The translations under genes and the position numbers were made by a program. A DNA stretch of 58,675 nucleotides from a virus. The notes under the pieces were generated by a model. That model ran no database searches and had not been told where the DNA came from. It saw only the letters and a program-made list of their open reading frames with translations. Below, one piece after another: positions 19,662-45,016 of this stretch (within the stretch, counting starts at the first letter, position 1; each line of letters starts with the position of its first letter). The stretch covers positions 1 to 58,675 of IMG/VR virus record IMGVR_UViG_3300024346_007222. One strand, 5' to 3'.

Positions 19662-20773
19662 AAAAATATATTTGTATTCAACCGTTTAAACATGTTGAGT
19701 TTTTTCATCAAGAAATAACTCTTTGTTGCCCAACTTGGTTAGATACTAAAATAAAATTTGATAAAAAAGATGGTGAATATGATTATGATGTTTGGAATTC
19801 CGAATTAGTACAAGATATACGAAAATCTATATTAGATGGAACATATTCATATTGTAATAAAACTACGTGTCCTCATTTAAGTACTCTTATTAATACTCAA
19901 ATTCCCAGTGGGTATTTTATTAAAAAAGATTATTTACCATATATTGATACCGAAGGGTATTGGATTGAAAATAAAACATATAATGAACAAACTCCGGCAT
20001 CTATAAATTTTACATATGATAGAAGCTGTAATTTAAAATGTCCATCATGTAGAGTTGATACCATAATGGCTAAACCAGATGAGGTATTAGAAATAGATAA
20101 AATAACTAATTTTATAAAAAGTAAGTATTCAAAAAATGTAAGAAAACTTGCTATTACTGGAAGTGGAGACCCATTTGCATCAAAATCATTTAGAAAATTT
20201 TTAATAGAATTTGAACCAAAATTATGGCCAAATTTAAATGAAATATATATTACTACAAATGGTATTTTATTTAATAAAGAAAATTGGAATTTAATAAAAA
20301 ATGTTCAACCATATATACAAATGGTAGAAATATCAATGGATGCCGCAACAAAAGATACCTATGAAAATATAGTTAGATTAAATGGCAAATGGGATGTATT
20401 AATGGAAAATTTAGTGTTCATTTCACAAATTAATACTATTAATACTTTACGATGTTCATTTGTTGTTCAAAATAATAATTATAAAGAAATGTTAGCTTTT
20501 GCAAAATTAATTTATGAAAAAACAATTGAAAGAACTGAAAATCAAACACACCCACATTCCACTTGGGTATATTTTGCTAAAATAGCACAATGGCCGCATA
20601 TAACAGATGCTAAATTTAAAGAGTTATCAGTATGGGAACCCGACCATGCAAATTATAATGATTTTGTAGAACAAGTAAATGAGTTATATGAGTATGAAAA
20701 AAGTTTTGACAATATGGGTTTTGGTGGTATAAATATAATGAGTAATTTTACTGATTTAATAATTCAAAAATAA
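19631..20773 (+). CDS. Radical SAM protein with N-terminal SPASM-like cluster region
   Basis: This is a 380-residue protein. The radical SAM motif is CNLKCPSC (C133, C137, C140), with KLAITGSGDPFAS as the GGEP-equivalent and MVEISMDAAT as a later core strand. The first ~85 residues show ICIQPFKHVEF, CC (32-33), a Trp, ILDGTYSYC and CPH. This is the pattern of an auxiliary-cluster SPASM/twitch domain (C-x-PF...CC...W...I-x-x-G...C...C), again placed before the core. Enzymes of this type modify peptides or sugars. It overlaps paralogue B by 31 bases and ends before a short AT-only gap. Confidence 0.82.
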   Translation: MDTENKEDILKKYICIQPFKHVEFFHQEITLCCPTWLDTKIKFDKKDGEYDYDVWNSELVQDIRKSILDGTYSYCNKTTCPHLSTLINTQIPSGYFIKKDYLPYIDTEGYWIENKTYNEQTPASINFTYDRSCNLKCPSCRVDTIMAKPDEVLEIDKITNFIKSKYSKNVRKLAITGSGDPFASKSFRKFLIEFEPKLWPNLNEIYITTNGILFNKENWNLIKNVQPYIQMVEISMDAATKDTYENIVRLNGKWDVLMENLVFISQINTINTLRCSFVVQNNNYKEMLAFAKLIYEKTIERTENQTHPHSTWVYFAKIAQWPHITDAKFKELSVWEPDHANYNDFVEQVNELYEYEKSFDNMGFGGINIMSNFTDLIIQK

Positions 20774-20797
20774 TATATATATATAAAACAACACAAG

Positions 20798-21763
20798 ATG
20801 AATGGTAAAAAGGTTTTGATAACAGGTGCCAACGGATTAGTTGGTAATTATATGGTTGATAAATGTATCCAAAGAGGAGCATTTGTAACTGCAGTGGATA
20901 TTCACACTCCAGAAAATCAATTAGAAAAATACAATGTGGATAACTATCAGTTTATTAAAGCTGATTTACGTGAATTCAAAAATTGTAAAAGAGTAGTTGA
21001 AGGACAGGATATAATTTTTCATATTGCAGGCGTAAAGGGTTCTCCAAAAAGAGCAGCAGAACAACCCGCAGATTATTTTGTACCAATGTTGCAGTTTAAC
21101 ACCAATATGATGGAAGCTGCACGTTTAGAAGACGTAGAATGGTATGTTTACACATCAACAGTTGGAGTATACCAACCGGCGGAAGTATTTTATGAAGATG
21201 ATGTTTGGAAAACCTTCCCATCGGAAAAAGATAAATACGCCGGATGGGCTAAAAGACTTGGAGAACTCCAAGCAGAAGTATATTCAGTATCGTACAATTG
21301 GAATCGGGCATCGATTGTAAGACCGGCAAATATTTATGGTAGACATGATAACTTTAGTCCAGAATCTACCGTCATCGCATCCCTAATCAAAAGATTATTC
21401 GGTGAGAAAGAACATCCATTAGTATGTTGGGGAGATGGTTCTCCAATTAGAGATTTTATCTACGCGGGAGATGTTGCTGATGGTATTATTCAGGCATATG
21501 AACAAAAATTAACACAACCAATAAATTTAGGTAGTGGAACGGGTGTAACAATTAAAGAACTTGCAGAAACTCTTGTAGAAATATACGAAGAAATGTATGG
21601 AGAAAAAGTTGAAATAAATTGGGACCCAACAAAACCAAATGGTGATGAGAAACGATTGATGAGTACTGAAAGGGCAGAATCGTTTGGAATTAAACAAAAA
21701 ATATCCTTAAAGACAGGATTAAGACATACAATTGATTATTATTTAAACGAATACAAAAAATAG
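20798..21763 (+). CDS. NAD-dependent nucleotide-sugar epimerase (extended SDR)
   Basis: This is a 321-residue protein. The NAD motif is VLITGANGLVG. The catalytic part is VYTSTVGVYQPAEVFYEDD, then DKYAGWAKRLGE (Y-x-x-x-K). IVRPANIYGRHDNFSPES and the PIRDFIYAGDVADGI substrate block follow. It resembles GDP-fucose synthase/UDP-glucose 4-epimerase relatives. Upstream (20771-20797) is a TATATATATATAAAA run that may be a promoter. It is followed four bases later by a related SDR. Confidence 0.85.
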   Translation: MNGKKVLITGANGLVGNYMVDKCIQRGAFVTAVDIHTPENQLEKYNVDNYQFIKADLREFKNCKRVVEGQDIIFHIAGVKGSPKRAAEQPADYFVPMLQFNTNMMEAARLEDVEWYVYTSTVGVYQPAEVFYEDDVWKTFPSEKDKYAGWAKRLGELQAEVYSVSYNWNRASIVRPANIYGRHDNFSPESTVIASLIKRLFGEKEHPLVCWGDGSPIRDFIYAGDVADGIIQAYEQKLTQPINLGSGTGVTIKELAETLVEIYEEMYGEKVEINWDPTKPNGDEKRLMSTERAESFGIKQKISLKTGLRHTIDYYLNEYKK

Positions 21764-21767
21764 AAAT

Positions 21768-22760
21768 ATGAAAAAAACAGACAAAATTTTAGTAACTGGT
21801 GCAAGTGGATTTATTGGTTCTAGATTATTAAAAAGTTTATACGAAGCAGGTTATACAAATTTGAGAGCAACTGCAAATTCCAGAAAATTAAGAAATGATT
21901 TTGAAGGTTCTGAAAATATAGAATTTATCAAAGGAGATTTACGAAATGATGGATTTTGTAAACAACTCACCAGAGAAATTGATGTCATATTCCATTGTGC
22001 AGCAAATACATCTAATGCATTAGATACTAAATTTAATCCCCTATTACATGTTACTCCAAACATTGAAATGAATGTTAACTTAATGGAACAATCGTGGATT
22101 AATTCAGTAAAGAAATTTATTTTTATATCATCAAATACAACATATCCTGATATGGGAGATGTACCTTGTACCGAAGATATGGAAATTCAAACCCCATCAA
22201 TTGTACCAGTATACAAAGCAGTTGGTTGGATGAAGCGTTATTGTGAAACACTTTGTGATTTCTTTTCAAATCAAATTCATAATCCAATGCAATGTATTAT
22301 CATTAGACCTTCAAATGCGTTTGGACCAAATGATAAATTTGATTACGAAAAATGTCACGTTACCCCTGCAAATATTAGAAAGGTAGCAGATAATCTAAAC
22401 CCAATACCAGTATGGGGTGATGGAACTGAAGTTAGAGATGTTATTCACGTAGATGATATGGTTAGTGGGTTTATATGTGTAGCAGAAAATGTTCATACAC
22501 ATGATGTATATAATGTATCATATGGTGAGGGGTATACTGTAAATGAAGTTTTAGATACGATTAAAGAGATAGAAGGTAATACTAACCCAATTGAGTATGT
22601 AAATAACAAAGCTCCTATGATTCCCGTTAGATTACTTGATAACACTAAATTAAAAGCATTAGGTTGGAAACCAAAATACAATTTACGAAGTGGATTAACC
22701 GATGCCCTTAAATGGTATAAAGAAAACAAAAATCAATTTAATCCAAATTCAAAACCATAA
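21768..22760 (+). CDS. GDP-L-fucose synthase-like SDR epimerase/reductase
   Basis: This is a 330-residue protein. The NAD motif is ILVTGASGFIGSRLL. FISSNTTYPDMGDVPCTEDM is followed by VPVYKAVGWMKRYCE with the Y-x-x-x-x-G-x-x-K-like catalytic segment. The segment IIIRPSNAFGPNDKFDYEKCHVTPANIRKV matches the LRPTNLYGPNDNFD..SHVIPALI block of GDP-fucose synthases well. VWGDGTEVRDVIHVDDM is the usual substrate loop. It would make GDP-fucose or a related 6-deoxy sugar. The stop overlaps the next start by one base (TAATG). Confidence 0.82.
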   Translation: MKKTDKILVTGASGFIGSRLLKSLYEAGYTNLRATANSRKLRNDFEGSENIEFIKGDLRNDGFCKQLTREIDVIFHCAANTSNALDTKFNPLLHVTPNIEMNVNLMEQSWINSVKKFIFISSNTTYPDMGDVPCTEDMEIQTPSIVPVYKAVGWMKRYCETLCDFFSNQIHNPMQCIIIRPSNAFGPNDKFDYEKCHVTPANIRKVADNLNPIPVWGDGTEVRDVIHVDDMVSGFICVAENVHTHDVYNVSYGEGYTVNEVLDTIKEIEGNTNPIEYVNNKAPMIPVRLLDNTKLKALGWKPKYNLRSGLTDALKWYKENKNQFNPNSKP

Positions 22761-24932: not shown

Positions 24933-27900
24933 ATGAATGAACTAAGTCAATATCTTGTCAATCAAATTTTATTAGAAGAAACTGAATTACGCAATTTTGT
25001 TGTAGTATATTCTGGTAGATTCCAACCTTTTCATAAAGGTCATTACGCAACTTATCAAAATCTTTGTAAGAAATTTGGTAAGGACAAAGTGTTTATTGGA
25101 ACATCTAATAAAACTGACAATCAAAAATCTCCATTTAATTTTAAGGAAAAGAAAATAATCATGACTAAAATGTTTGGTATTCCATCAAACAAAATAGTTG
25201 AGATTAAAAATCCTTATGCACCAACTGAAATCTTAAAAAACTTTGATGAAACTACAACTGGTTATATAAGTGTTGTTGGTGAAAAAGATGAAATGAGATT
25301 AGGTGGAAAGTATTTTGAGAAATATAAAGGTAAGATAGAACAAGGATATAAGGAAAAAGGTTATGTGTATGTTTCACCCTCGCAATCAAACCCAATATCA
25401 GGTACTAATGTACGAAATTGGTTGAGTAAAGGGGATGAAGAACAACAAAGGGCTGGATTCTTAAAAGCATATCCAAAGTTTGATGAAAAAATATTCAAAC
25501 TAATTACTCTTAAACTTAAAACTATGAGTGAAGGAATGCCAGGTGGAACGGGTATCGGATTGTCGTTTCCAAACGGAACAATTAATGGTGCACCGAAACC
25601 TGAAGATGTGAAAAAGATGCGTAAGAAGTTAGATGATGAAGATGAGGTAAACGAAGAGATTAAATTAGATGTTAATATTGGTGATACCATATTAATGGGT
25701 AAATTTAAAAATAAAAAAACAGTAGTTAAGACGATTGGTAAAGATGAACATGGAATGCCAACGATTAATGGTAAAAAAGTGGCTACATTTAGAATTCTAC
25801 CAAAACAAAATATTTTTAAAGAGGCGGCAACTGTTTCCGGTGGTGATGATTCACAACCTGATGGTGGATATCTACCAAAAGGTAAAGCAAGAGTATTAGG
25901 TGGTGATGATGGGGTTAATAGTAGTGATGATTGGTTTGTTAGAGGAGGATATACCCAAACTGATTTTCCAAAAGCAGATGCAATATATGCAGCAGATGAT
26001 GAAAACCAAATAACATTTAAGATTAAATCAAAAAACAACGCAAGAAGTTTGAATAAACCAACCACTTACCCACTTGGGTTTGATGATATTGATGTCACTC
26101 AAGAAATTGAAAAAATTGAAAAGGCAGAAAAGAGATTGAAAAAGAAAACAAAACAAAAAGATTCTATTTCAGAATTAATAACTGATTACTCTGATTTATT
26201 AGATTCATTATTTGAATCAGATGGCGAAGATGATAAATATGTGCATGTAGGAAATGGCAAGTATAAAGAAAAAACTAAAAAAGATGTAGATGGTGCACCA
26301 TTATTCAAAAAAGATGATAATGGTAAATATAGTCCAATTAAAGGAGATGACGAGGGTGGGGCTGATAAACCGGTTGGTCAAGCAATACAAGGTGCCGATA
26401 TGTTTAAACACGATAAAAGTGTTAAACAACCAAATGATTCTGATAAAGATTTTAAAGCACAAGCAGATAAAGCACAGTCAGATTTTAAAGCACAATCTGA
26501 TAAAGCAAAAAGTGATTTTAAAACACAATCAGATAAAGCACAAGCAGATTTTAAAGCACAAGCAGGTGATAATGTTCAAAAAGCTAAAGCCAAAGGATAT
26601 GATTTTTATAAATTATCTTTAGATGATAAAGAATTAAAAGCAGAAGAAGATAAAGAAAGACAAGCGGTTGCAGATGCAAAAGAAAAGGGAGATGACAAGG
26701 GAGTAGCAGCAAATACATTAAAATATATTCAAACACGAATTGCTAAAGCTAAAAAAGCTGGAGATAAAGAATCGGAACAAATGTGGTCCGATGATTATAC
26801 TAATAAAAGAAAAGATTACGAATCTCAATATGGTAAACCAGAAGATGAATTTGATTTAAAAAATACAAAATCAGAACCAAAAAACCCAAAAGAGGCATCG
26901 ACCGAAGTAGCAAATAAATTAAAGAATAGAAAAACAAAAAATGGTGAAGAATTAGATATTGATGTAACCCCAAATGGTTCATTGATTATTGGAGTTGAGC
27001 ATGGGAAAAGAAAGAAAAGTAATAAACAAACAATAGAACAAATAAAAACTTTACCTAAAGATACAAAAGTAATGTTTGTAGGTGAAGGTGGTATGAGTAA
27101 AGATAAGAATGGTAATATTGAGTTTGCTGGAGAACAAGATGAAATCAGAAATGCTGTAAAAGGACATTTTAATAATTCAGAAGAAAGTAGTTGGGATGAA
27201 AATGCAGACGTATTGGATGATAAATCACCTGTATTTGATGAAGTAGCAAAGGTATTAGGTGGAAGTAAATCTAAAGCTAAAGCAGCATTGTGGTCAAATA
27301 TGTATGGACAAGATGGTCCTGATGAAAATATGTCACCTGAAGATTATTTAGATGATGAAGGTAAAGCGTGGTTAGTAGACCAGGCACAAAAAGGAGGAGT
27401 AACATCAATAACTAAGGATACGGATTTTAATAATTTATCAGATGAACAAAAAGATGATTTGTATCAATTAAATTATAGAGATGATGATGGGTATGGTGAA
27501 ACTGAAATAAGTAAAGCACAAGAAGAATATAATGGATTTCGTCAAAGGGAATTAGATAGAAAAATAAAAGAGGCAGAGGATAACGGATATACAGTAATTG
27601 CACCCGTTGGTAATTCGCACGTTGATATGCGTAGACAACGAACCAAAAAGAAAGATGCAGAAGATGCTCCAAAGGTGGATGTAAATAAAAATGCACCAAT
27701 TGCTCTCCAAAAAATTAAAGATGGTGTAAAGAATTGGAGTGTGCAAGAAAAAGAATTTTTTACAAAAAAAGTACACAAAGGTAACTCACCGGAACGAAGA
27801 AGTTTTGCGGAAGCGGTTAAACATAAAGCTAAAGGTGCGTTGGAAGCAATTAAACATGGTGCCAAACACGAAGTTCATTTGTTTAAAGAAGCCGGTAGTG

Positions 27901-30338
27901 GGGTTAAAAACTTTTTTAGTGGTAAAGAGGTATCAAAAGAAGAAAAGAAAGCACTAATTGGAGTTGCTAAAAAAGTTGCATTAGCAGCAGCATTTGGTGC
28001 AGCTGGAGGTGGATTGGCGCATGGAGCTTTTGCTTTTGGTAAACACGTAATGATGGAATTTATTCCTCACGTAGTTGTTGAAACTCTTGCAGTAGGTGCG
28101 GGTAAAGCAGCACTATTTGCAGGAGAGGAAGAACCAGATGCGGATATGTTAAAATTCATAGATATCATAAGTAAGAAATTAGAAAGTGCAAAAATACCAA
28201 ATGATGTAATGGCTTCTGCAATAGAATCGTTTAATTCTAATAAAGATGAAAAGGGTGATATTAAAGAAAATTATTACTATGATGGAACAGTTGATAATTA
28301 CGCAGATTGGGCAAGAACCCATCCGAGAAAATACGATAATAAGAAAGCTAATTTTAAAGTAAAAGATTCAGGTCAAGATGATTTAGAGGAAATAGCGGTA
28401 CAAATTGATAATATACCTAGTGAACCATTAACCGAAGTTAAAAAAGAAAGTGTTGTAAATTACTACAAAGAAATTTGTAAAGATTTAAAGATAAAACCTA
28501 TTGCAGTTAAATTCGGTTCAGTTGGTCACGCAGGTGCAGCAACTACATTTGATTCTAACACATTTATACCAGAATACATTACTTTTGATTTGAGTAAGGT
28601 TACTGATATAGAAAGGGCAATATTACACGAGATAACACATCAAATACTTTTAGTGAAACAACAAAATCCATTCCATAATTGTCATAAGAGTGCAGGATTT
28701 AAAAAAGTAGAAAATAAATTAATAGATAAATACTTTTATTCATCACAGAGTGCAGTATTAAGAGAAAGAGTTAAAGTTGAAATGGCTAAGACTGATATGG
28801 ATTCAGTTGAAAAATATGCCGATTCACAAATGAGTCCAACTGATGTTGATTTAGGAAAAGAAACTGACCATTTCTTTCAAAGGTTAAACGACCCACGAAA
28901 TGGTAAAGAAATATCACCTGCAGAATTAACAGGTTTATTCAAAAGATTGGCTAGAAACAAAAAGAAATTTTTAGAGTTCCTAAAACAATATAAAGAGTTT
29001 GTAGTTAAAGATAGAGTATCGAATATTAATATAGCATTTATTAAAGTGGCTGATAGATTAATTGCTAAGACGGTAATGAGAAAAGCTGATTTCAAATCAT
29101 CTACTCCTGTATTTACAACCGAATCCCTAATAATGGAAGGTGGTGCATATGGACATATGAATCATCCATTTGATACTGAAATCAATTTAACCTTTGGCCA
29201 ACTTAAAGATATTGTAAATCGTGCATTGGATGGTAACTTAGAATTTGCTAGAGAGAAAACTGATGGTCAAGCCTTGGCTATAAGTTGGATAGATGGTAGA
29301 TTAGTAGCAGCAAGAAACAAATCACATTTGAAAAACAAAGGTGCTGGGGCGTTAGATATCAACGGAGTAGCAGATAAGTTTGCGGGTAGAGGTGAATTAA
29401 CCGATGCCTATAACTTCGCTATGAAAGACCTATCTAACGCCATAAAATCATTATCCCAAGCACAAAAAGATAAAGTATTTAAGAATGGTTCATGTTTTAT
29501 GAACATAGAGGTGATATATCCTACCTCAGTCAACGTTATTCCTTACGGTCAACCACTATTAGTATTTCACGGAACAATGGAATACGATGAGAATGGTGAT
29601 GCGATAGGGGAATCAGCAGAAGCAGGTAGAGTATTGGGTGGAATGCTTAAACAAGTAAACGCCGATGTTCAATCAAAGTATACACTGCAAGGGCCACCGG
29701 TATTAAAGTTACCAAAATCACAAGACCTATCATCTAAGAAAGGTAAGTATCTTGCTATGATATCTAAATTGCAAAAAGAATTTGGATTAGGAGATACCGC
29801 AGGTGTTGCTAATTACCATCAAGCATGGTGGGAGAACTTCGTAGATAAGAAATCACCAACTACATTAGATAACGCCACTAAAATGGGGTTAGTTAAGAGA
29901 TGGGCGTTTGTTGAAAAGGGATTCCGTATTGATAAGAACTCAATTAAGGATGAAAAGACCCTTGCATGGGCTACCAAAATAGATAAGGAAGACCATAAGG
30001 GTATTTCAAAAGATAATTTAATGAAATTTGAAGATATTTTCTTAGGAGTTGGTGCAGATGTATTGGAATTTACCGCATCGGTATTAACAGTTAACCCAGA
30101 TTCTGCTCTTAGGGATATGAAGAAACGTTTAGAACAAACTATAAAGGATGTTCAGGCAAGTGGAGACCCTAAAAAGATAGATAAACTAAAATTAGAACTT
30201 AAAAGATTAAATGCAATTGGTGGTGCTAAAAGAATTGTACCAATCGAAGGAATTGTATTTGTATATAACGGACAAACATTCAAATTAACAGGAGCGTTCG
30301 CTTCTCTCAATCAATTATTAGGTATTTTTTACGCATAA
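24933..30338 (+). CDS. Giant multidomain protein: HxGH nucleotidyltransferase, HExxH zincin, and DNA/RNA-ligase-like domain
   Basis: This is an 1801-residue protein. Residues 1-16 look like a capsid-targeting leader (MNELSQYLVNQILLEE). Residues ~21-195 form a cytidylyltransferase/NMNAT-like domain: VVYSGRFQPFHKGH with H34-x-x-H37, and ISGTNVR (155-161) as the ISSTxxR equivalent. A long charged region includes DFKAQ(S/A)DKAQ repeats (~505-550). Around 1010-1070 is an Ala/Gly-rich hydrophobic stretch (VAKKVALAAAFGAAGGGLAHGAF). H1232-E-I-T-H1236, with H1251 in CHKSAGF, is a SprT/WLM-like zinc protease site. Residues ~1403-1801 resemble ATP-dependent ligases: K1442-T-D-G1445 (motif I), NIE1526 (III), E1772-G-I-V-F (IV), K1784 (V). 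It directly precedes terminase and portal genes, so packaging and injection in the manner of T4 Alt is proposed. Confidence 0.8.
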   Translation: MNELSQYLVNQILLEETELRNFVVVYSGRFQPFHKGHYATYQNLCKKFGKDKVFIGTSNKTDNQKSPFNFKEKKIIMTKMFGIPSNKIVEIKNPYAPTEILKNFDETTTGYISVVGEKDEMRLGGKYFEKYKGKIEQGYKEKGYVYVSPSQSNPISGTNVRNWLSKGDEEQQRAGFLKAYPKFDEKIFKLITLKLKTMSEGMPGGTGIGLSFPNGTINGAPKPEDVKKMRKKLDDEDEVNEEIKLDVNIGDTILMGKFKNKKTVVKTIGKDEHGMPTINGKKVATFRILPKQNIFKEAATVSGGDDSQPDGGYLPKGKARVLGGDDGVNSSDDWFVRGGYTQTDFPKADAIYAADDENQITFKIKSKNNARSLNKPTTYPLGFDDIDVTQEIEKIEKAEKRLKKKTKQKDSISELITDYSDLLDSLFESDGEDDKYVHVGNGKYKEKTKKDVDGAPLFKKDDNGKYSPIKGDDEGGADKPVGQAIQGADMFKHDKSVKQPNDSDKDFKAQADKAQSDFKAQSDKAKSDFKTQSDKAQADFKAQAGDNVQKAKAKGYDFYKLSLDDKELKAEEDKERQAVADAKEKGDDKGVAANTLKYIQTRIAKAKKAGDKESEQMWSDDYTNKRKDYESQYGKPEDEFDLKNTKSEPKNPKEASTEVANKLKNRKTKNGEELDIDVTPNGSLIIGVEHGKRKKSNKQTIEQIKTLPKDTKVMFVGEGGMSKDKNGNIEFAGEQDEIRNAVKGHFNNSEESSWDENADVLDDKSPVFDEVAKVLGGSKSKAKAALWSNMYGQDGPDENMSPEDYLDDEGKAWLVDQAQKGGVTSITKDTDFNNLSDEQKDDLYQLNYRDDDGYGETEISKAQEEYNGFRQRELDRKIKEAEDNGYTVIAPVGNSHVDMRRQRTKKKDAEDAPKVDVNKNAPIALQKIKDGVKNWSVQEKEFFTKKVHKGNSPERRSFAEAVKHKAKGALEAIKHGAKHEVHLFKEAGSGVKNFFSGKEVSKEEKKALIGVAKKVALAAAFGAAGGGLAHGAFAFGKHVMMEFIPHVVVETLAVGAGKAALFAGEEEPDADMLKFIDIISKKLESAKIPNDVMASAIESFNSNKDEKGDIKENYYYDGTVDNYADWARTHPRKYDNKKANFKVKDSGQDDLEEIAVQIDNIPSEPLTEVKKESVVNYYKEICKDLKIKPIAVKFGSVGHAGAATTFDSNTFIPEYITFDLSKVTDIERAILHEITHQILLVKQQNPFHNCHKSAGFKKVENKLIDKYFYSSQSAVLRERVKVEMAKTDMDSVEKYADSQMSPTDVDLGKETDHFFQRLNDPRNGKEISPAELTGLFKRLARNKKKFLEFLKQYKEFVVKDRVSNINIAFIKVADRLIAKTVMRKADFKSSTPVFTTESLIMEGGAYGHMNHPFDTEINLTFGQLKDIVNRALDGNLEFAREKTDGQALAISWIDGRLVAARNKSHLKNKGAGALDINGVADKFAGRGELTDAYNFAMKDLSNAIKSLSQAQKDKVFKNGSCFMNIEVIYPTSVNVIPYGQPLLVFHGTMEYDENGDAIGESAEAGRVLGGMLKQVNADVQSKYTLQGPPVLKLPKSQDLSSKKGKYLAMISKLQKEFGLGDTAGVANYHQAWWENFVDKKSPTTLDNATKMGLVKRWAFVEKGFRIDKNSIKDEKTLAWATKIDKEDHKGISKDNLMKFEDIFLGVGADVLEFTASVLTVNPDSALRDMKKRLEQTIKDVQASGDPKKIDKLKLELKRLNAIGGAKRIVPIEGIVFVYNGQTFKLTGAFASLNQLLGIFYA

Positions 30339-31063: not shown

Positions 31064-32647
31064 ATGGCAGGAACTTCTTTAAAAGATATAATAAAATTAG
31101 AATACCAAAAGTGTGCAGGTGACCCCGTATACTTTATGAAGAAGTATTGCATGATTCAACACCCGGTTAGGGGTAAGATACCTTTTCATTTATATCCATT
31201 TCAGGAAAACACCCTAACCCAATTCAAAGATAATCGATATAACATCATTTTGAAATCTCGCCAGACGGGTATCTCAACTCTAACTGCAGGATTTGCGTTA
31301 TGGAAGATGTTATTTAATCAGGACTTCAACGTATTAGTAATTGCAACGAAACAAGAGGTTGCAAAAAACTTAGTAACTAAAGTAAGGGTAATGAATCAAT
31401 ACTTACCGAGTTGGTTAAAACAAACAACAGTCGAAGATAATAAATTATCCCTTAGATACTCAAATGGTTCACAAATTAAAGCAACTTCTGCAGCATCTGA
31501 TGCTGGACGTTCTGAAGCCTTATCCCTTTTAGTATTTGATGAGGCGGCATTCATTGATAACATTGAAGATATATGGGTATCTGCACAATCTACTCTATCA
31601 ACGGGTGGTAACGCAATTATTCTTTCTACTCCTAATGGTGTGGGTAATTTCTTTCATAGAACATGGGTTAGTGCAGAGGACGGAACTAATGGATTCAATA
31701 CAATCCGTTTACATTGGACGGTACATCCAGAAAGAGACCAAATTTGGAGAGATGAACAGCAAATACTTTTAGGAGCAAAGGGTGCAGCACAGGAATGTGA
31801 TTGTGATTTCGTATCATCAGGTGATAGTGTCATAGACCCACAACTTCTAATGTTTTATAGGGAAACTTTTGTACAAGAACCATTAGAAAAAACTGGCTTT
31901 GATGGAAATCTTTGGAAATGGGAATATCCCGATTATCAAAAATCATATATGGTTGTTGCGGACGTTGCACGTGGAGATTCTACGGATTACTCCGCCGCAC
32001 AAGTGATTGATATTGTTAATTCGGTACAAGTAGCAGAATACAAAGGAAAATTAGATACAAAAGATTTTGGAAATTTCTTAGTTTCCTTAGCAACCGATTA
32101 CAACGAAGCACTTTTAGTAATAGAGAACGCAAATATTGGTTGGGCAGTTATCCAACAGGTAATTGATAGGGGATATAAAAACTTATTCTATATGAGTAAG
32201 GATTTAAAGTATGTAGATGTTGAACATCAAATGCATAATAAATTTAGGGCGGAAGAAAGGGGTATGGTTGCAGGATTTTCAACAACCTCTAAAACAAGAC
32301 CTCTAATTATTTCAAAATTGGATGATTATTTCAGAGAGAAATCTATCACCATACGTTCTAATAGGTTGATAGAGGAGCTTTTTACCTTTATATGGAATAA
32401 TAATCGTGCGGAAGCAATGAGGGGATACAACGATGACTTAGTGATGGCGTTATCAATTGCTCTATGGGTGAGAGATACCGCATTGAGATTAAGACAGGAA
32501 GGAATTGATTTAACTATCAAATCATTAGGTGGAATTCAACAACAAGTACAAGAATCTGGCTTCTATGGCGGTAGTTCAATGGATGATAATCCGTGGTCAA
32601 TGAAAGTGGGTAATCAAGACGAAGATTTGACTTGGTTGATTAAATAA
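31064..32647 (+). CDS. Terminase large subunit (gp17-like)
   Basis: This is a 527-residue protein. The N-terminal ATPase has Walker A ILKSRQTGIST (K64-T72), Walker B LLVFDEAAF (D159-E160) and coupling motif ILSTP (187-191). The C-terminal RNase-H-like nuclease has VVADVARGDSTDYSAA with the first catalytic Asp, LLVIENANIG with a Glu, and YNDDLVMALSIALW with the last Asp residues. Size and motif order fit T4 gp17. It is the motor that cuts concatemers and packages DNA into the prohead through the portal encoded just downstream. Confidence 0.97.
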   Translation: MAGTSLKDIIKLEYQKCAGDPVYFMKKYCMIQHPVRGKIPFHLYPFQENTLTQFKDNRYNIILKSRQTGISTLTAGFALWKMLFNQDFNVLVIATKQEVAKNLVTKVRVMNQYLPSWLKQTTVEDNKLSLRYSNGSQIKATSAASDAGRSEALSLLVFDEAAFIDNIEDIWVSAQSTLSTGGNAIILSTPNGVGNFFHRTWVSAEDGTNGFNTIRLHWTVHPERDQIWRDEQQILLGAKGAAQECDCDFVSSGDSVIDPQLLMFYRETFVQEPLEKTGFDGNLWKWEYPDYQKSYMVVADVARGDSTDYSAAQVIDIVNSVQVAEYKGKLDTKDFGNFLVSLATDYNEALLVIENANIGWAVIQQVIDRGYKNLFYMSKDLKYVDVEHQMHNKFRAEERGMVAGFSTTSKTRPLIISKLDDYFREKSITIRSNRLIEELFTFIWNNNRAEAMRGYNDDLVMALSIALWVRDTALRLRQEGIDLTIKSLGGIQQQVQESGFYGGSSMDDNPWSMKVGNQDEDLTWLIK

Positions 32648-32720: not shown

Positions 32721-34451
32721 ATGGCAGATACTACATTTTTCAATCGGTTAAAAAAACTTTTCTCGACAAAGGCAATTGTTACTGTTGATGCTAGTGGAAA
32801 ACGAAAAGTTTTTGATGCGGATGAAAGACAACAAACAAACCTATCTTCATTAAAAGATAGATACACAAAAATACAAAAATCTTTTTATGAACAAGCGGGT
32901 GGTGCACAATCAATGGCATACGCTCAAGTTCGTAGAGAAGTATTTAGAGATTTCGATGCAATGGACCAAGACCCAATTATAGCATCTGCATTAGATATTT
33001 ACGCTGATGAATCTACCCTTAAAAACGAATTTGGTGATATCATAACAATACGTTCAGATAACCCTCGTGTTCAAGAATTATTAGAAAACCTTTTTTATGA
33101 TATTCTTAATATTGAATTTACTTTATGGCCGTGGGTTCGTAATATGTGTAAATATGGTGATTTCTTTTTAGGACTTGAAATTGCTGAAGGTAAAGGTATA
33201 GTAAACGTTACTCCCCACTCACAATATAATACCGAAAGATTAGAAGGGTTTGACCCGACTAATGCTTCTCTTGTTAAATTCAAAGTACAAGAAGACCCAA
33301 TCGGTAAAGTAGAGTATGATAATTTTGAAATGGCACATTTCCGTTTATTATCTGATACCAACTGGTTACCTTATGGTAAATCAATGATTGAGAATGGCAG
33401 AAGGTTATGGAAACAATTATCTCTAATGGAAGATGCGATGTTAATCCATCGTATTATGAGAGCACCTGAAAAAAGGGTATTCAAAATTGATATTGGTAAT
33501 ATTCCACCTACCGAAGTTGATAACTACATGCAAAAGATTATCAATAAGATGAAAAAAGTTCCATTCTTAGATAAGACAAGCGGTGATTACAATTTAAAGT
33601 ATAATATGCAAAACCTTACGGAAGATTTTTATCTACCGGTAAGAGGTGGTGATAGTGGAACTGCTATTGAAAACTTAGCAGGATTAGAATATGCTTCGAT
33701 TGAAGATATTGATTACCTAAAAGCTAAATTATTTGCTGCATTAAAAATTCCTAAAGCATATTTGGGATATGATGAAAATGTAAATGGTAAAGCAACCCTA
33801 GCAGCAGAAGATGTTCGTTTTGCAAGAACAATTGAAAGAATCCAAAGAACAGTTACCTCAGAATTATCTAAAATAGCAGTTATCCACTTATATGGTAATG
33901 GTATACAAGATTTTGAAATGACTAATTTTGAAATTGGATTAGTTAACCCATCTACAATCTACGAACAAGAGAAAGTAAACCTATGGAGTGAAAAAATCCG
34001 TTTAGCAACTGATATGGCTGCATTGAAGATGTTATCTAAGGATTGGATATATGAAAATATATTTAAATTATCAGAAACCGAACAAACCGAACAAAGAGGC
34101 AAAGTGGTTGAGGACCTAAAGGATGTATTCCGTTACAACTCAATAGAAAACGATGGTAATGACCCTGCAAATCCTCCAAAACCAACCGATGTTGAAGAAA
34201 GTTTGGAAAATCTTAAAACAGAATTGAAAGATAAAGGTGGTAGACCCCGCGAAGGTAATACTTATGGTAAAGACAAGCATCCTTATGGAAGAGACCCATT
34301 GGGTGATGATGAAAGAACTTCAAAGAGAAGTAGAACATCTGAAACAAAAGCAATGAATTATATCAATGGGATTTCATCAAAAAAGAAATATTTACACGAA
34401 ACTAAAGATATGTTAGATGAAACTAATATTATCGATGATACGGAAAATTAA
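32721..34451 (+). CDS. Portal protein (gp20-like)
   Basis: This is a 576-residue protein. The diagnostic T4-type block is EVFRDFDAMDQDPIIASALDIYADEST (~70-97). It is followed by FTLWPWVRNMCKYGDFFLGL, FRLLSDTNWLPYGKSMIENGRRLWKQ, LEYASIEDIDYLKAKLFAALKIPKAYLGY, and FARTIERIQRTVTSEL. The C-terminal ~80 residues are charged and repetitive (GKDKHPYGRDPLGDDERTSK), probably disordered. It forms the dodecameric DNA gate at the capsid vertex and starts head assembly. Length is close to T4 gp20 (524). Confidence 0.97.
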   Translation: MADTTFFNRLKKLFSTKAIVTVDASGKRKVFDADERQQTNLSSLKDRYTKIQKSFYEQAGGAQSMAYAQVRREVFRDFDAMDQDPIIASALDIYADESTLKNEFGDIITIRSDNPRVQELLENLFYDILNIEFTLWPWVRNMCKYGDFFLGLEIAEGKGIVNVTPHSQYNTERLEGFDPTNASLVKFKVQEDPIGKVEYDNFEMAHFRLLSDTNWLPYGKSMIENGRRLWKQLSLMEDAMLIHRIMRAPEKRVFKIDIGNIPPTEVDNYMQKIINKMKKVPFLDKTSGDYNLKYNMQNLTEDFYLPVRGGDSGTAIENLAGLEYASIEDIDYLKAKLFAALKIPKAYLGYDENVNGKATLAAEDVRFARTIERIQRTVTSELSKIAVIHLYGNGIQDFEMTNFEIGLVNPSTIYEQEKVNLWSEKIRLATDMAALKMLSKDWIYENIFKLSETEQTEQRGKVVEDLKDVFRYNSIENDGNDPANPPKPTDVEESLENLKTELKDKGGRPREGNTYGKDKHPYGRDPLGDDERTSKRSRTSETKAMNYINGISSKKKYLHETKDMLDETNIIDDTEN

Positions 34452-34518: not shown

Positions 34519-35388
34519 ATGAAAAAAATTAAACATTCGAAATTTAAAAATACTGGGTTTTTATTTGAACTCTTAACTCGTCAAATCACGTTGGAGATTT
34601 TAAATAATGCTCCAGTAGAAAAGGCTAAAAAAATAGTACAAGAATTTTTTGGTGGTAAAACCGAATTAGCAAAGGAATTGCGTTTATTCAATTTACTTAC
34701 AACTGAAAAATATAATTCAGAAAGTAAAGCAGAAAAATTTATTGATGCTATTATCGAAACTCGTACTAAATTAGATGAAACTAAATTATTAAGAGAAAAG
34801 TATAACTTAGTAAAGGCTATTAAAGAAAATTTTGATATTGAAGAATTTGTTGCTTCTCCTGTTTCTAATTATAGAGTATTGGCATCGGTTCATAAGATTT
34901 TTGAAGCAAAGATACAAGATGTAACTAATGTTAAGGATGTATTTGATGCTAAGATTACATTAGTAGAACACGTATCTACCACCCAAACATCTATTAAGAA
35001 GATTGAAGATAAATTAATGGAAACATATAAGAATCAAGAAAAGGATTTGAGATTGTTGACATACAAAATACTAGTTGAAACATTTAATAGTAAATACACT
35101 AACTTAAACGACGACCAAAAAGGTCTTTTAAGAGAATTTATTAATAATGTTAATAATACATCTAAATTCGGTGAATACTACGATTCACAATTAAAGAAAG
35201 TAGTAACTGAACTTCACAAATTACATTCCGAAGTTAATGATAAAATCACAAAAATTAAATTAAAAGAAACTATCAATGTTTTAAAAACACAAAAGATAGG
35301 AAAGAAAATTACGGATGAACAGGTTTCAGCGTTGATGATATCATATGAATTAATAAAGGAAATAACCAATGTCAGAAAAAAATATTAA
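34519..35388 (+). CDS. Conserved hypothetical helical head-region protein
   Basis: This is a 289-residue protein starting MKKIKHSKFKNTGFLFELLTRQIT. It is almost entirely helical and Lys/Glu-rich (KTQKIGKKITDEQVSALMISYELIKEI at the end). No enzymatic motif is seen. Location between portal and protease suggests a prohead core or assembly role, but this is positional. It overlaps the next gene by 20 bases. Confidence 0.7.
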   Translation: MKKIKHSKFKNTGFLFELLTRQITLEILNNAPVEKAKKIVQEFFGGKTELAKELRLFNLLTTEKYNSESKAEKFIDAIIETRTKLDETKLLREKYNLVKAIKENFDIEEFVASPVSNYRVLASVHKIFEAKIQDVTNVKDVFDAKITLVEHVSTTQTSIKKIEDKLMETYKNQEKDLRLLTYKILVETFNSKYTNLNDDQKGLLREFINNVNNTSKFGEYYDSQLKKVVTELHKLHSEVNDKITKIKLKETINVLKTQKIGKKITDEQVSALMISYELIKEITNVRKKY

Positions 35389-36862
35389 ATCTTTTATAGA
35401 CGAACTTATTAAGGAAGTCGAAGATGAATTAGATGAAGCCAATGTGACAGGTAATGTTGATGGCTACGATACTCCTCATGCCTTTTCTGGTAAAAATTCT
35501 GATAAAAAAAGAAAAAAAACTGCAACACAATTCGGTTATACATTAGTAAATAATGATATTAACAATATTGATGAATCTATAAACGAAGATACTAAACGTG
35601 TAAATATATTAGGTATAGATTTTAATATAAGTGAAATGAATGGTAGAATATTCTTTTCTTTTATAGATAAAAAAGCAGCAAGTATTAAAATTAGAGAAAT
35701 AGGAACTAATAAAATAGTAAATCTTATACAAAATAGTTTAGATAAAGCATATGGTAAGGGCGAGTTTTTCTTTAAAGGTGGAGACCATGCTGAATTTCAA
35801 AATGGATATTTATTCCAACGAAGTATTGGTAATATAAAACTTAATAAACTCAAATTTGAATCCATAAACGAAGCATTAAAACATCTTATCCACGTAGAAA
35901 CTCCAACACAAATAGTATCAAAACCAGTGGCAAAACAAATTCTTGCATTAGCTAAGAAAGGTGTTCGTTCATATGAGATTGGACTGAATATGGGATTTGT
36001 AGGTAATCAAAAAGCTGCAGTAGATGCATTTCAAAAAGTTAAGAATAAAATATATTTTGAATTAGATAAAAGAGAAGGTGTTAATGAAGCATTAGACCCT
36101 AAAGCAGAAAAATTCTTAGATGCTATTCAAGTTAATGATAGAAGTATAAAGGATTTAAAGAATATTACTGTCGATGCAACCCCACAAGGTAATTGGTCGG
36201 TTTATTATAAAGGTAAACGTATGTTTACTCTTAATGGTAAGATGTTGGATGATAAAACTATTATGAAATATGGTTTAGAGCATATGGATGAGAGTATTAA
36301 TGAACTAACTAATAACGAAAGGCAAATTAAAAACGGAAATCCGGATAATATATTTTATATATTCTATAAAGGGCAATTTGCAGCAGTTTATTGGGCAATG
36401 AATCCTAGTGATTTGTTTAAGATATATTGGGATGAATTTAAAGTAAGAAGGCCAGCTGGTTCTCAATTCAAATTAAATCCAGAATTTATCATTGTCCCTA
36501 AAAAAGAGTATGATAAGAGTACATCAAATCGTTACGCAAAATTAAAACCATATGTAGATAAGTTTTGGGATAAATTACAAAACGAATCGGTAAACGAAGG
36601 TAAAACACATAAACCAGTAAATCGTTGGTTAGAATTGAAAAATGATGAATCAATGCATGCTAATAAGAAGTTAGCAACTGGTTTGAGAGAATTAAAATAT
36701 CAATTAAAAGAGGTTGAAACTTTTTTCCGTTGGTATAATCAAATTAAGACTATGAATGAATTGAGTTCCGATACATTTTGGAAAAGAACGCACGGACATA
36801 TTTATAAGATAAAGGAACGATTAATCAACATAGCGAAAACAATACAGGAGATAGAAAAATAA
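35369..36862 (+). CDS. Candidate internal head polyprotein with five ES[IV]NE/GVNE sites
   Basis: This is a 497-residue protein. The leader SFIDELIKEVEDELDEANV is amphipathic and acidic, followed by VDGYDTPHAFS and a basic stretch. Putative prohead-protease sites recur: ESINE 69-73, ESINE 164-168, GVNE 237-240, ESINE 308-312, ESVNE 406-410. They divide the protein into modules of about 70-100 residues. Module 169-240 (KPVAKQILALAKKGVRSYEIG) looks like a helix-turn-helix fold. Module 411-497 is helical. T4 gp21 cuts after Glu in (L/I)-x-E contexts, which these resemble. The gene is two genes upstream of the protease. Individual module functions are unknown. Confidence 0.68.
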   Translation: MSEKNIKSFIDELIKEVEDELDEANVTGNVDGYDTPHAFSGKNSDKKRKKTATQFGYTLVNNDINNIDESINEDTKRVNILGIDFNISEMNGRIFFSFIDKKAASIKIREIGTNKIVNLIQNSLDKAYGKGEFFFKGGDHAEFQNGYLFQRSIGNIKLNKLKFESINEALKHLIHVETPTQIVSKPVAKQILALAKKGVRSYEIGLNMGFVGNQKAAVDAFQKVKNKIYFELDKREGVNEALDPKAEKFLDAIQVNDRSIKDLKNITVDATPQGNWSVYYKGKRMFTLNGKMLDDKTIMKYGLEHMDESINELTNNERQIKNGNPDNIFYIFYKGQFAAVYWAMNPSDLFKIYWDEFKVRRPAGSQFKLNPEFIIVPKKEYDKSTSNRYAKLKPYVDKFWDKLQNESVNEGKTHKPVNRWLELKNDESMHANKKLATGLRELKYQLKEVETFFRWYNQIKTMNELSSDTFWKRTHGHIYKIKERLINIAKTIQEIEK

Positions 36863-37578
36863 TGAAAATATCACGTACACGATTAAAAGAAATCATCAAA
36901 GGAGTAATGACTGAAGAAAATGAATATCAGGCATTCTTTCAAAAAGCATTAGATAAAGCTGGAAAATCAATTCCATCTATGTCAGATGAGGAAAAGAAAG
37001 CATTCTTTGATAAAATTGATGCAGCATGGAATGGTAAGGGTGAGAAGAATGAAGAATTAGTGGGTGGCCAAAAGAAATTAGATGTTGATAAAGATGGTGA
37101 TATCGGTAGTGATGATTTAGCAGATTTAAGAGCTGGTAAAAAAGCAAACGAATCAGTAAACGAAGAAGTTAAAGATTGGGATACTATTCATAACGTATTT
37201 GTTAAATTTTTAAAAGCAAACACTAAGGAATTAGAGAAAAGAGTTCTTTCTAAAGACGAAGATGCAACTAAAAAAGCTATCAAATCCATCGTTAGTGGTT
37301 TAACTAATGCACAGAGAAATTTGAAAATGGAATCGGTGAATGAAGGAAAATACGATGCTGATTTAGATAAGATAGAAGCAGCTGTTAAAAAGGCATCTTC
37401 TTTTATGAGTGTTGGTACTGAATTGAAAAAAATAGGTATTAAATATGATTTTACAACATCGATGATGCCAATGTATATGATTAAAGTATCTGGTAATACC
37501 ATTGCTATTGTAAATAAGAAATACGCTACAGATTCGGAAAGAATAGTAGGCGATATTGCAATTGGTTTATTAAACTAA
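36862..37578 (+). CDS. Candidate internal head protein with EF-hand-like loop and two ESVNE sites
   Basis: This is a 238-residue protein. The leader is MKISRTRLKEIIKGVMTEE. Residues 20-65 (EYQAFFQKALDKAGKSIPSM, ending GKGEKNE) form a small helical module. D74-V-D-K-D-G-D-I-G-S-D-D85 fits the 12-residue EF-hand/dockerin calcium loop. ESVNE sites at 97-101 and 157-161 then separate two further modules. The start overlaps the previous stop (TAATG). The ESVNE sites match those of the upstream protein, suggesting shared processing by the prohead protease. Confidence 0.66.
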   Translation: MKISRTRLKEIIKGVMTEENEYQAFFQKALDKAGKSIPSMSDEEKKAFFDKIDAAWNGKGEKNEELVGGQKKLDVDKDGDIGSDDLADLRAGKKANESVNEEVKDWDTIHNVFVKFLKANTKELEKRVLSKDEDATKKAIKSIVSGLTNAQRNLKMESVNEGKYDADLDKIEAAVKKASSFMSVGTELKKIGIKYDFTTSMMPMYMIKVSGNTIAIVNKKYATDSERIVGDIAIGLLN

Positions 37579-37587
37579 ATAATAACA

Positions 37588-37764
37588 ATGACACGAAAAA
37601 GATTGTTAGATATTATTAACGAAGAGATAACCAAAGTAAAATGGGGTATCGTCAAAGAAGAAATCACAACTGAAGATGAAAAACTTATTCGTGATATTAT
37701 TCGTAAAGAAGTATCTGCAATATTTTTTGACCTCTTTAAAAAGAGAAAAACGTGGGGAGCATAA
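37588..37764 (+). CDS. Small helical protein next to the prohead protease
   Basis: ATG at 37588, stop at 37762-37764, 58 residues: MTRKRLLDIINEEITKVKWG, then a second amphipathic helix (LIRDIIRKEVSAIFFDLF) and a basic end. The N-terminus again has an IIxEE leader. The stop overlaps the protease start (TAATG), so the two should be translated together. T4 has small prohead-core proteins (gp67, gp68) just before gp21, so this is a positional candidate for such a core protein. Confidence 0.62.
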   Translation: MTRKRLLDIINEEITKVKWGIVKEEITTEDEKLIRDIIRKEVSAIFFDLFKKRKTWGA

Positions 37765-38363
37765 TGAAAAATTTATTAATAGAAACAACATTATTTGAAG
37801 GAAAATTGAATGAAGATTCAAGTGGTAGAACCTTAGTTAAAGGTATTCTTCAAAGAGCGGTTGCAGAAAACCAAAATGGTCGTATATACCCTAAAGAAAT
37901 CCTAATGCGTGAAGCAAAGAAATACGAAGTTCTTATTAAAGAAAGACGTGCATTAGGGGAATTAGACCATCCAGATTCTGGTATTATCAACTTAAAGAAC
38001 GTTTCTCATAATGTCAAAGAAATTCATTGGGAAGGCGATGACCTTTGTGGGACAGTAGAAATTTTACCAACTCCATCAGGTAACATCTTAAAAGAATTAT
38101 TAAGAGCAGGAATCCTTTTAGGTATTTCATCTCGTGGTATGGGTTCGGTAGTTAATATTGGCGAAGGTAAAGTTAAAGTGGGTGATGATTTTGAACTGAT
38201 TGGTTGGGATTTTGTTTCTAACCCATCTACACATGGTGCATTTATGACACCGGTTACGATGAACGAATCAGTAAATAGACAATTAAAAGAACAAGCTATA
38301 GTTTGTGGTGAGTATTGTAAGGCACAAGACCTTATGAGAGAAATCATTACTGAATTAGCATAA
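37764..38363 (+). CDS. Prohead core protease (gp21-like)
   Basis: This is a 199-residue protein. The catalytic histidine is H69 in GELDHPDS, and the serine is in GISSRGMGS (S122/S123), as in T4 gp21-type herpes-assemblin-like proteases. GRIYPKEILMRE and FVSNPSTHGAF are further family blocks. An in-frame GTG at 37752 would add four residues, but the ATG at 37764 overlaps the preceding stop (TAATG) and gives MKNLLIETTLFEG, a self-leader with likely cleavage sites. The enzyme matures scaffold, capsid and internal proteins after cutting after Glu. Confidence 0.95.
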   Translation: MKNLLIETTLFEGKLNEDSSGRTLVKGILQRAVAENQNGRIYPKEILMREAKKYEVLIKERRALGELDHPDSGIINLKNVSHNVKEIHWEGDDLCGTVEILPTPSGNILKELLRAGILLGISSRGMGSVVNIGEGKVKVGDDFELIGWDFVSNPSTHGAFMTPVTMNESVNRQLKEQAIVCGEYCKAQDLMREIITELA

Positions 38364-43387: not shown

Positions 43388-45016
43388 ATGGCAAATTTTA
43401 ATTTATCTAAACTTATGGAAGGCAGAAACCCACAAGCGGTAATGTTGGCTGAAACACGTCAATTGAAAAGCAAATGGGAAGCAACTGGTCTTTTAGAAGG
43501 TTTAAAAGAAAGAGAGCAATCTCAAATCGCAGTTCTATTAGAGAACCAAGCGAAACAATTATTGGATGAAGCTACCGCAACTGGTACTTCAGCAGGTTCT
43601 GAAGAATGGTCTGGCGTAGCTTTACCATTAGTAAGAAGAATCTTTGGTGAAATTGCAGCGAAAGAATTCGTTTCAGTTCAACCAATGAACTTACCTTCAG
43701 GTCTTATATTCTATCTAGATTTCAAATACGGAACAGCAGTAGCAGGTGCTACTAAATTTGATGGTAAATCATTATTTGGTGGAGCTGGTACTTCAACTTT
43801 TGATGGTGATTTCGGTAGAACTAAATCAGCTGTAAATGGTCTTTATGGTGAAGGAAGATATTCTTACACAATTAACGACCAATCAATTTCAGTAGTTGCA
43901 GCTAATGCTGTAACTGCTTCAGCAAACTGGCAAGAAGTTGGATATGATTCAGCTTTATCATCATCAGTAGCAGCAGGTACTTTGAAAAGAGTAACTATTG
44001 CAAAATCAAACATTTCAACTGCAGCAGATTTTGACGCAGCACGTTCATTCCATATCTCATCTTCAGGTTTTTCTGCATTAGATGCATTCTACCCTGCAAA
44101 TACTAAAGTATCAGGTTCAAACGTAGTATTCTATGCTAACTATAGCGGTACTGCTGCTGGTGCAACTGCAAACAATGTAACAGTTAAATATTCATTGGCT
44201 CCAACTTCTACAACTCGTGGTGATTTCGAAGATGGTAACCCAACTGAACCAGCAACTGATTTAGGTATTCCAGAAGTTGACTTAGAATTACGTTCTGAGG
44301 CAATTGTTGCTAAGACTCGTAAGTTGAAAGCAGTGTGGACACCAGAATTGGCACAAGATTTGAATGCATACCATTCAATCGATGCTGAAGCTGAATTAAC
44401 TTCTATGTTATCTGAATACATCTCTTTAGAGATTGATTTAGAAATCTTAGATATGTTAAAGTCTAACGCGTTAACAACTGAATATTGGTCAGCAACAATC
44501 GGTGAAGAGTTTAACTCTGCAAACGGTACTTGGTCTGCTGGTAACAATTCATTAGCTTACCAAAAAAATACATGGTTCCAAACATTAGGTGTTAAATTGA
44601 ATAAAGTTTCTAACAAGATTCATCAATTAACTCTTCGTGGTGGTGCTAACTTCATTGTTGCATCTCCAGATGTTTGTACTATCTTAGAATCAATTCCTGG
44701 TTTCTCAGTTAACGCGGATAAAGATGCTACATCTTTCGCAGCTGGTGTATCTCAAGTAGGTTCTTTGGCATCTCGTTACACAGTTTACAAGAACCCTTAT
44801 ATGACTTCTAACGAAATCTTATTAGGATTCAAAGGAAGTAACTTCCTTGAGACTGGTGCGGTTTATGCTCCATATGTACCATTGATTATGACTCCATTAG
44901 TGTACGACCCATCTAACTTCACGCCTCGTCGTGGTGTTATGACTCGTTACGCTAAGAAGATGGTTCGCCCAGAATTTTACGGCAAGGTTTACGTTAAAGA
45001 TTTGGCTTCAATCTAA
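43388..45016 (+). CDS. Major capsid protein (gp23-like)
   Basis: This is a 542-residue protein. FVSVQPMNLPSGLIFYLDFKYG (94-115) matches the T4 gp23 GVQPMNSPTGQVF block. LRSEAIVAKTRKLKAVWTPE, LISEYISLEIDLEIL-type helices and the C-terminal TPRRGVMTRYAKKMVRPEFYG follow the family. The N-terminal ~61 residues form a helical propeptide ending QLLDE-ATATG, matching the gp21 rule, so mature protein should begin at Ala62. It has a strong ribosome site upstream and a strong terminator downstream, as expected for the most abundant protein. Confidence 0.96.
   Translation: MANFNLSKLMEGRNPQAVMLAETRQLKSKWEATGLLEGLKEREQSQIAVLLENQAKQLLDEATATGTSAGSEEWSGVALPLVRRIFGEIAAKEFVSVQPMNLPSGLIFYLDFKYGTAVAGATKFDGKSLFGGAGTSTFDGDFGRTKSAVNGLYGEGRYSYTINDQSISVVAANAVTASANWQEVGYDSALSSSVAAGTLKRVTIAKSNISTAADFDAARSFHISSSGFSALDAFYPANTKVSGSNVVFYANYSGTAAGATANNVTVKYSLAPTSTTRGDFEDGNPTEPATDLGIPEVDLELRSEAIVAKTRKLKAVWTPELAQDLNAYHSIDAEAELTSMLSEYISLEIDLEILDMLKSNALTTEYWSATIGEEFNSANGTWSAGNNSLAYQKNTWFQTLGVKLNKVSNKIHQLTLRGGANFIVASPDVCTILESIPGFSVNADKDATSFAAGVSQVGSLASRYTVYKNPYMTSNEILLGFKGSNFLETGAVYAPYVPLIMTPLVYDPSNFTPRRGVMTRYAKKMVRPEFYGKVYVKDLASI

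Follow-up and report, generated by a model that had tools for sequence, protein, structure and literature searches.

A putative capsid-targeted mosaic polyprotein encoded upstream of the terminase gene in a phage of the T4 superfamily

The stretch of DNA analyzed here (hereafter, the window) is a 58.7-kb virus record that represents a phage of the T4 superfamily. The 1801-aa protein encoded at positions 24933-30338 (plus strand) of the window is probably a capsid-targeted mosaic polyprotein that is packed into the head, cut by the prohead protease and injected in pieces. In the proposed scheme, an N-terminal leader would carry the chain into the prohead core, and a gp21-type protease would cut after Glu at [I/L]-x-E, behind the leader and at several joints, as suggested by the conserved sites and by natural variants; the products would be an NMNAT-like enzyme, an RNA-ligase-like enzyme from the C-terminus and, from the region between these two, a set of modules that varies among phages. 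Once mature, the pieces would accompany the DNA out of the head and act at the onset of infection, with the nucleotidyltransferase domain contributing to NAD+ supply and the ligase resealing RNA cut by host defenses, both before phage gene expression, and the middle modules might serve as accessory effectors. Short protease-site linkers would allow cassettes to be gained, lost and swapped among related phages, an exchange that is itself seen in the comparison of sequences; the cassettes appear to be exchangeable because the pieces are joined at such linkers. The modules, the conserved sites, the exchange of cassettes and the alternative starts of the ligase are all demonstrated by comparison of the related loci.

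The gene, its neighborhood and the proposed protease

The ORF starts with ATG and is intact; it overlaps a minus-strand ORF of 234 aa (25361-26065), presumably a by-product of the plus frame. The original prediction placed the gene beside those for terminase and portal, and this placement is borne out by the order of the genes downstream:

31064..32647, plus strand: terminase large subunit (TerL), a fixed neighbor (PHROG 2; synteny)
32721..34451, plus strand: portal protein (PHROG 213)
37752..38363, plus strand: gp21-type prohead protease, the proposed cutter (PHROG 207, E 1e-48; 36% identity to T4 gp21 over 151 aa)
43388..45016, plus strand: gp23-type major capsid protein, with LLDE61↓AT (the arrow marks the predicted cut) at the T4 gp23 cut position (PHROG 138; alignment with T4 gp23)

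The capsid protein is closest to those of Flavobacterium immuto phages, Microcystis phage Mel-JY01 and an uncultured 484-kb phage. In T4, gp21 cleaves L/I-X-E sites behind the Glu, and the capsid-targeting propeptides are 10-19 residues long (PMC9026906). The site LLDE61↓AT of the window capsid protein aligns to FLTE65↓A of T4 gp23; given the gp21 homologue and this alignment, the same cutting rule, that is, specificity for Glu in L/I-X-E, is likely to hold for the protease of the window phage.

A location in the head gene region and multiple predicted sites would also be expected of a prohead core or scaffold protein that is cut up and mostly discarded, like gp22 or gp67 of T4, rather than delivered as cargo; the core proteins of T4 are cut into fragments, most of which leave the head (PMC9026906). 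This is the least probable of the alternatives considered here, as neither the conserved enzyme active sites of the nucleotidyltransferase and the ligase nor the strongly variable middle of the protein fits a scaffold, and a scaffold candidate is encoded by a separate gene at 42243-43355.

Relatives of the ligase module were found in at least 593 IMG/VR stretches, with more distant sets added later. Among 164 ligase-bearing ORFs, the complete ones range from 413 to 1999 aa; TerL and/or portal were found in 161 of the 164 loci, with TerL 0.5-2.5 kb downstream. The relative from Microcystis phage Mel-JY01 consists of leader, nucleotidyltransferase and ligase only. A longer relative (L089, 1-7284) has an ORF of at least 2428 aa that is open at the start and ends in the ligase module. 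In a collection of bacterial genomes, relatives are carried by seven loci, which lie on short contigs of metagenome-assembled genomes and are probably phage sequence. PADLOC returned no match for the window protein or for its close relative in locus L012.

The leader and the nucleotidyltransferase domain

The N-terminal part of the protein comprises two features:

24933..24977, plus strand: leader, residues 1-15 (MNELSQYLVNQILLE), a predicted capsid-targeting propeptide cut after E15 (leader conservation)
24999..25502, plus strand: nucleotidyltransferase (NMNAT/cytidyltransferase-like), residues 23-190, with HxGH and SGTxxR (PF01467, PHROG 395, TIGR00125)

The leader ends in I-L-L-E15, so that residues 1-15 have the form of a propeptide of 10-19 residues that ends in L/I-x-E. 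In the alignment of N-termini, M1, L4, L8 and E15 are nearly invariant, and of 40 leaders, 39 contain [ILVMF]xE; two of the leaders appear to have a misassigned start. A capsid-targeting leader had been proposed from the window alone, with the mature protein starting at residue 17; the leader is indeed a conserved feature, and its placement is to be corrected, the conserved residue being E15 and the predicted mature start 16.

The domain that follows scores above the cut-off of Pfam CTP_transf_like (PF01467; E 9.7e-8, 32.7 bits against a cut-off of 21) and of NCBIfam TIGR00125. The NMNAT models of NCBIfam match it best but stay below their cut-offs (TIGR01527, 29.4 bits against 181). The domain contains the NMNAT motifs H34-x-G-H37 and S156-G-T-x-x-R161; GRFQP, H37, SGT and R161 are invariant in the alignment, and the first His is lost in the most distant relatives. 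The signature originally read as HFKGH has its two histidines at the right positions, and the actual letters are F33-H34-K35-G36-H37 (FHKGH), that is, an H-x-G-H motif. By these profiles, the domain is NMNAT-like, passing the general families and none of the NMNAT equivalog cut-offs. It belongs to the same nucleotidyltransferase superfamily as the phage NMNAT/cytidyltransferase proteins (PHROG 395; PMC10665884) and differs from them in that the window protein has no visible Nudix or kinase partner and equivalog cut-offs are unreached. The experimental finding that comes closest to packaging is a cytidylyltransferase detected by mass spectrometry in S-CREM2 virions, by 3 peptides for which the authors allow carry-over (PMC10665884); unlike the window protein, it has only 287 aa and consists of a nucleotidyltransferase without a ligase.

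The C-terminal RNA-ligase-like domain

29139..30335, plus strand: RNA-ligase-like domain, residues 1403-1801, with the predicted nucleotidyl-accepting Lys K1442 (invariant motifs; AlphaFold2 and Foldseek; separate gene in relatives)

The C-terminal domain contains ligase motifs in order: KTDG at 1442-1445, motif III as FMNIE to E1526, motif IV as EGIVF at 1772-1776 and motif V as F-K1784-L. Across 40 homologues (to 37% identity), E1441, K1442, D1444, G1445, R1461-N1462-K1463, E1526, E1772-G1773 and K1784 are invariant, and the homologues accordingly keep EKxDG, ARNK, the motif III Glu, EGxVF and the motif V Lys. The covalent nucleotidyltransferase RNA ligases (Rnl1, Rnl2 and the archaeal enzymes) have the same motifs I (EKxDG), III, IV (EGxV) and V (FKLT) in the same order; the window domain differs from them in a long helical insert that is predicted by the model between motifs III and IV.

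The AlphaFold2 model of the domain has a pLDDT of 72.8 and a pTM of 0.63. The first 13 PDB matches of this model in Foldseek are ligases, nearly all of them RNA ligases, with a Palaeococcus RNA ligase at the top (E 3.9e-3) and low TM-scores; among viral structures, the matches are proteins named cytidyltransferases (S-PM2, uncultured phages) and RNA ligases. VIA-align places ligases at Z 3-5, mixed with unrelated entries and not above them. No family cut-off of Pfam or NCBIfam is reached by the C-terminal 400 residues; PF09414 was hit in one relative only, at 14.8 bits against a cut-off of 27. Comparison of the alignment profile with PDB sequences gave chance-like ribosomal and other matches only, and hhalign against the T4 Rnl2 family alignment placed motif I in register without reaching significance. 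Thus, the reading of the C-terminus as ligase-like is upheld by the invariant KTDG and motifs III-V and by the Foldseek matches and lacks a family assignment above cut-off; support for the ligase fold falls short of proof. The domain agrees better with an RNA than with a DNA ligase, and it is denoted RNA-ligase-like rather than RNA ligase.

The ligase joint and alternative ways to start the ligase

29127..29144, plus strand: predicted cut site SLIME1402↓GG, L1399-G1404 (P1/P3 conservation at the joint)

At the joint in front of the ligase, P1 is Glu in 90 and P3 is Leu or Ile in all 92 of 92 distinct contexts, while the sequence further upstream differs between phages and P2 and P1' are free. 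The tail of the joint has low confidence in the AlphaFold2 model and is missing from one distant relative (L002), so the fold does not seem to depend on it.

The ligase is encoded separately in seven relatives, by an ORF located between a 3 bp overlap with, and 15 bp behind, the polyprotein ORF. These separate genes have a leader of their own, with a start like MIRLHKILNEVLLKE↓GGAYGH and an ending LLKE↓GG, and the same leader, Met included, is embedded within fused proteins of other loci. The two exceptional contexts at the joint represent seven loci (L112, L123, L126, L136, L137, L138 and L141), in which Met replaces the P1 Glu and the DNA reads AAGGAG, 9 nt, ATG, GGN, GGA. With a Shine-Dalgarno sequence and ATG at this position, translation would give the same GGAYGH N-terminus; this clade has apparently switched from proteolysis to an internal translation start. 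The suggestion that LIME-GGAYG (E1402) is a protease cut freeing the ligase-like part thus gains support from the conserved site, the gp21 and gp23 homologues and the separate-gene versions, as well as from cassette insertions bounded by sites and from the internal-start variant with the same N-terminus.

The middle modules and a zinc-peptidase-like domain

Between the two terminal domains, comparison of relatives delineates the following modules:

25638..25832, plus strand: module A, residues 236-300, small; recurs at other positions in many relatives
26208..26513, plus strand: module B, residues 426-527; behind different modules in relatives
26937..27629, plus strand: module C, residues 669-899; replaced by a ParB-like module in L009 (comparison of relatives)
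27663..28283, plus strand: module D, residues 911-1117, with a Gly/Ala-rich hydrophobic stretch seen in the sequence; recurs in relatives
28425..28733, plus strand: zinc-peptidase-like module, residues 1165-1267, with HEITH at 1232-1236 and PLTE before it (free-standing homologue; SprT-like Pfam)
28779..29123, plus strand: further module, residues 1283-1397; common in relatives, with free-standing homologues

Modules A-D are found in relatives in other arrangements. By eye, and as guesses only, module A could be KOW/SH3-like, module C TraB/ChaN-like and the module at residues 1283-1397 a BECR-type RNase; the latter occurs free-standing in the Flavobacterium immuto and Methylophilales Melnitz phages. 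Short degenerate repeats (DFKAQADKAQS and variants) at about residues 500-550 (nt ~26430-26580) are absent from L009, L010 and L012.

The zinc-peptidase-like module is related to a free-standing 109-aa protein of Bacteroides phage EMB2, with which it has in common HExxH and a following His (of FHN). Its similarity to the SprT-like Pfam family is weak (E 0.029, below cut-off), and an AlphaFold2 model of residues 1165-1397, which include the next module, has a pLDDT of 37.8, too low to assign a fold to either module. The module was found in the closest relatives only and, judged by this distribution, is not a general feature of the family; for the same reason, a role of the HExxH domain as a general polyprotein processor was rejected. 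The protein had been described as joining three catalytic signatures, and these are present where they were placed, HEITH at 1232-1236 included; however, there are at least seven modules, and the middle is mostly exchangeable. A single three-enzyme protein was rejected as the middle modules come and go among near-identical relatives.

The HExxH module bears on another explanation, namely that the gene encodes a conventional 'polyvalent' injected protein which remains intact or relies for its processing on its own zinc peptidase instead of the prohead protease. A multi-domain chain encoded beside virion genes, with an HExxH module, agrees with this possibility, and zincin-type peptidases are thought to process polyvalent chains (PMC5512222). 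We nevertheless consider it unlikely: HExxH was found in the closest relatives only, in contrast to the [IL]xE joint, which nearly all relatives share, and both the separate-gene ligases and the internal-start clade point to a ligase that is free.

Exchange of cassettes at predicted protease sites

The window protein and its relatives in L009, L010 and L012 have shared segments that are mostly 82-99% identical, yet whole inserts differ. At the ligase joint, L012 carries an additional 102 residues between TESINE↓A and NESLIME↓GG. Before module A, it carries about 230 residues that end in RESVSE↓DI; the corresponding place reads EVNE↓EI in the window and ESIKE↓EI in L009. L010 has about 85 extra residues at NIFKE↓, ending in NRIKE↓AA. 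With the ligase joint excluded, [IL]xE lies within 4 residues at 15 of 27 distinct junctions compared with 7.5% at same-protein controls. In local shuffles, 17 occurrences of [IL]xE against 8.8 expected were reached in 0 of 2000 trials and reversed or shifted motifs were not clearly enriched; for all these counts, the junction definition and thresholds were our own choice and were loosened once, the phages are related so that p-values are approximate, and [IL]xE is a short motif. Ten of the 27 junctions have no nearby site, including the swap in the B-C-D region in which module C gives way to the ParB-like module of L009, and modules B-C-D may therefore stay one piece.

Relationship to known systems

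With two or more unrelated activities in one chain (the nucleotidyltransferase domain, the ligase motifs and the modules) and a gene located among those for virion proteins, the window protein resembles the polyvalent proteins (PMC5512222), which likewise combine several unrelated enzyme domains per chain in a virion gene neighborhood, show strong mosaicism, are presumed to be injected with the DNA and in some members include a zincin-type peptidase. It differs from them in having prohead-protease-type sites and a leader like a capsid-targeting sequence (CTS) rather than a general built-in peptidase, in the pairing of NMNAT-like and RNA-ligase-like domains, and in its T4-superfamily setting. 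With IPI-III and Alt of T4, it would share a short propeptide ending in [L/I]-x-E, a gp21-type protease, variable cargo and presumed injection (PMC9026906, PMC12373910); in T4, however, there is one gene per cargo, whereas in the window a single ORF with a single leader would encode several cargoes. The analogy to T4 Alt that was drawn in the original prediction extends only to the leader, the location and the inferred delivery; Pfam reports no ADP-ribosyltransferase (ART) domain in the 1801-aa protein, several modules of which lack an assigned fold. No report of the combination of prohead-protease joints with many cargoes in one ORF was found in the open-access literature.

If the polyprotein scheme is correct, several proteins that are encoded as a single chain behind one packing tag would be separated by the head protease and delivered at DNA entry. 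Through the linkers, cargo could be exchanged, and the variable cassettes would constitute a large pool of candidate anti-defense proteins with a role comparable to that of T4 Ip1-3, which are injected anti-restriction proteins (PMC12373910). The NMNAT-like and RNA-ligase-like enzymes would acquire testable roles before any phage gene is expressed.

Neighboring cassette arrays

Two genes between portal and protease encode arrays of small cassettes:

35369..36862, plus strand: second polyprotein, a cassette array with 5 E[SG][IV]NE linkers (linker count; locus comparison)
36862..37578, plus strand: third polyprotein, a cassette array with 2 ESVNE linkers (linker count; locus comparison)

In shuffled sequences, 0.10 and 0.04 linkers, respectively, are expected in these two genes under the wider pattern. 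Across loci, the density of ES[IV]NE is 3.3-3.8 per 1000 aa in both array families and 0-0.06 elsewhere. The ends of the array genes are constant, and the cassettes between them vary from phage to phage, down to none. When all loci are pooled, 144 distinct cassettes with a median length of 74 aa are found inside the arrays and fall into 69 families; members of the common families lie next to several different neighbors, and two families are found in both array genes. A search of the array-gene sequences in the family of the 1801-aa protein yielded one shared cassette type only, and therefore the array loci appear to exchange little with that family.

The DNA of the linker, GAATCAGTAAACGAA, is conserved beyond codon usage and could possibly serve as recombination homology. 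In the window, it occurs exactly at 37150-37164 and with 1-2 mismatches at 35573, 35858 and 36584; 71 IMG/VR stretches carry two exact copies spaced 186-216 nt. Conservation of the array linker at the DNA level is what a recombination site would show, and it is in line with yet another explanation of the 1801-aa protein, that of an intracellular multidomain enzyme that is never packed, with Glu-rich joints that are flexible linkers or recombination sites and nothing else. Phage NMNATs (PMC9503650) and RNA ligases (PMC7824862) are, moreover, usually discussed as intracellular enzymes. Nevertheless, the leader similar to the CTS of T4, the fixed position by the terminase gene, the preferential occurrence of [IL]xE at junctions relative to its reversed or shifted versions and the internal-start exception render this explanation quite improbable.

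Taking the packed and processed polyprotein as the preferred reading, a broader scheme can be put forward tentatively, at somewhat less than an even chance. Under this scheme, T4-superfamily phages of marine and fresh water would possess three in-frame, integron-like polyprotein loci with prohead-protease sites between the cassettes (a few enzymes in one locus and dozens of ~74-aa mini-protein families in the other two), the products of which would be packaged as a single chain, processed inside the head and then injected to serve as a plug-in anti-defense set, with exchange by recombination at the conserved ~15-nt linker.

Several other genes of the window deserve mention. A 1521-aa ORF at 52074-56639 has no PHROG match. 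The N-termini of the products encoded at 16328, 20798 and 21768, in the region upstream of the polyprotein gene (16328-22760), look by eye like epimerases/dehydratases (nucleotide-sugar). Within the head gene cluster, a 588-aa protein (38840-40606) has weak ParB-like matches and a leader, MIKLNNLLIE, that resembles the leader of the separate ligase genes, and the product of the gene at 40617-41684 begins with MIRLSKIVKE, in the same style.
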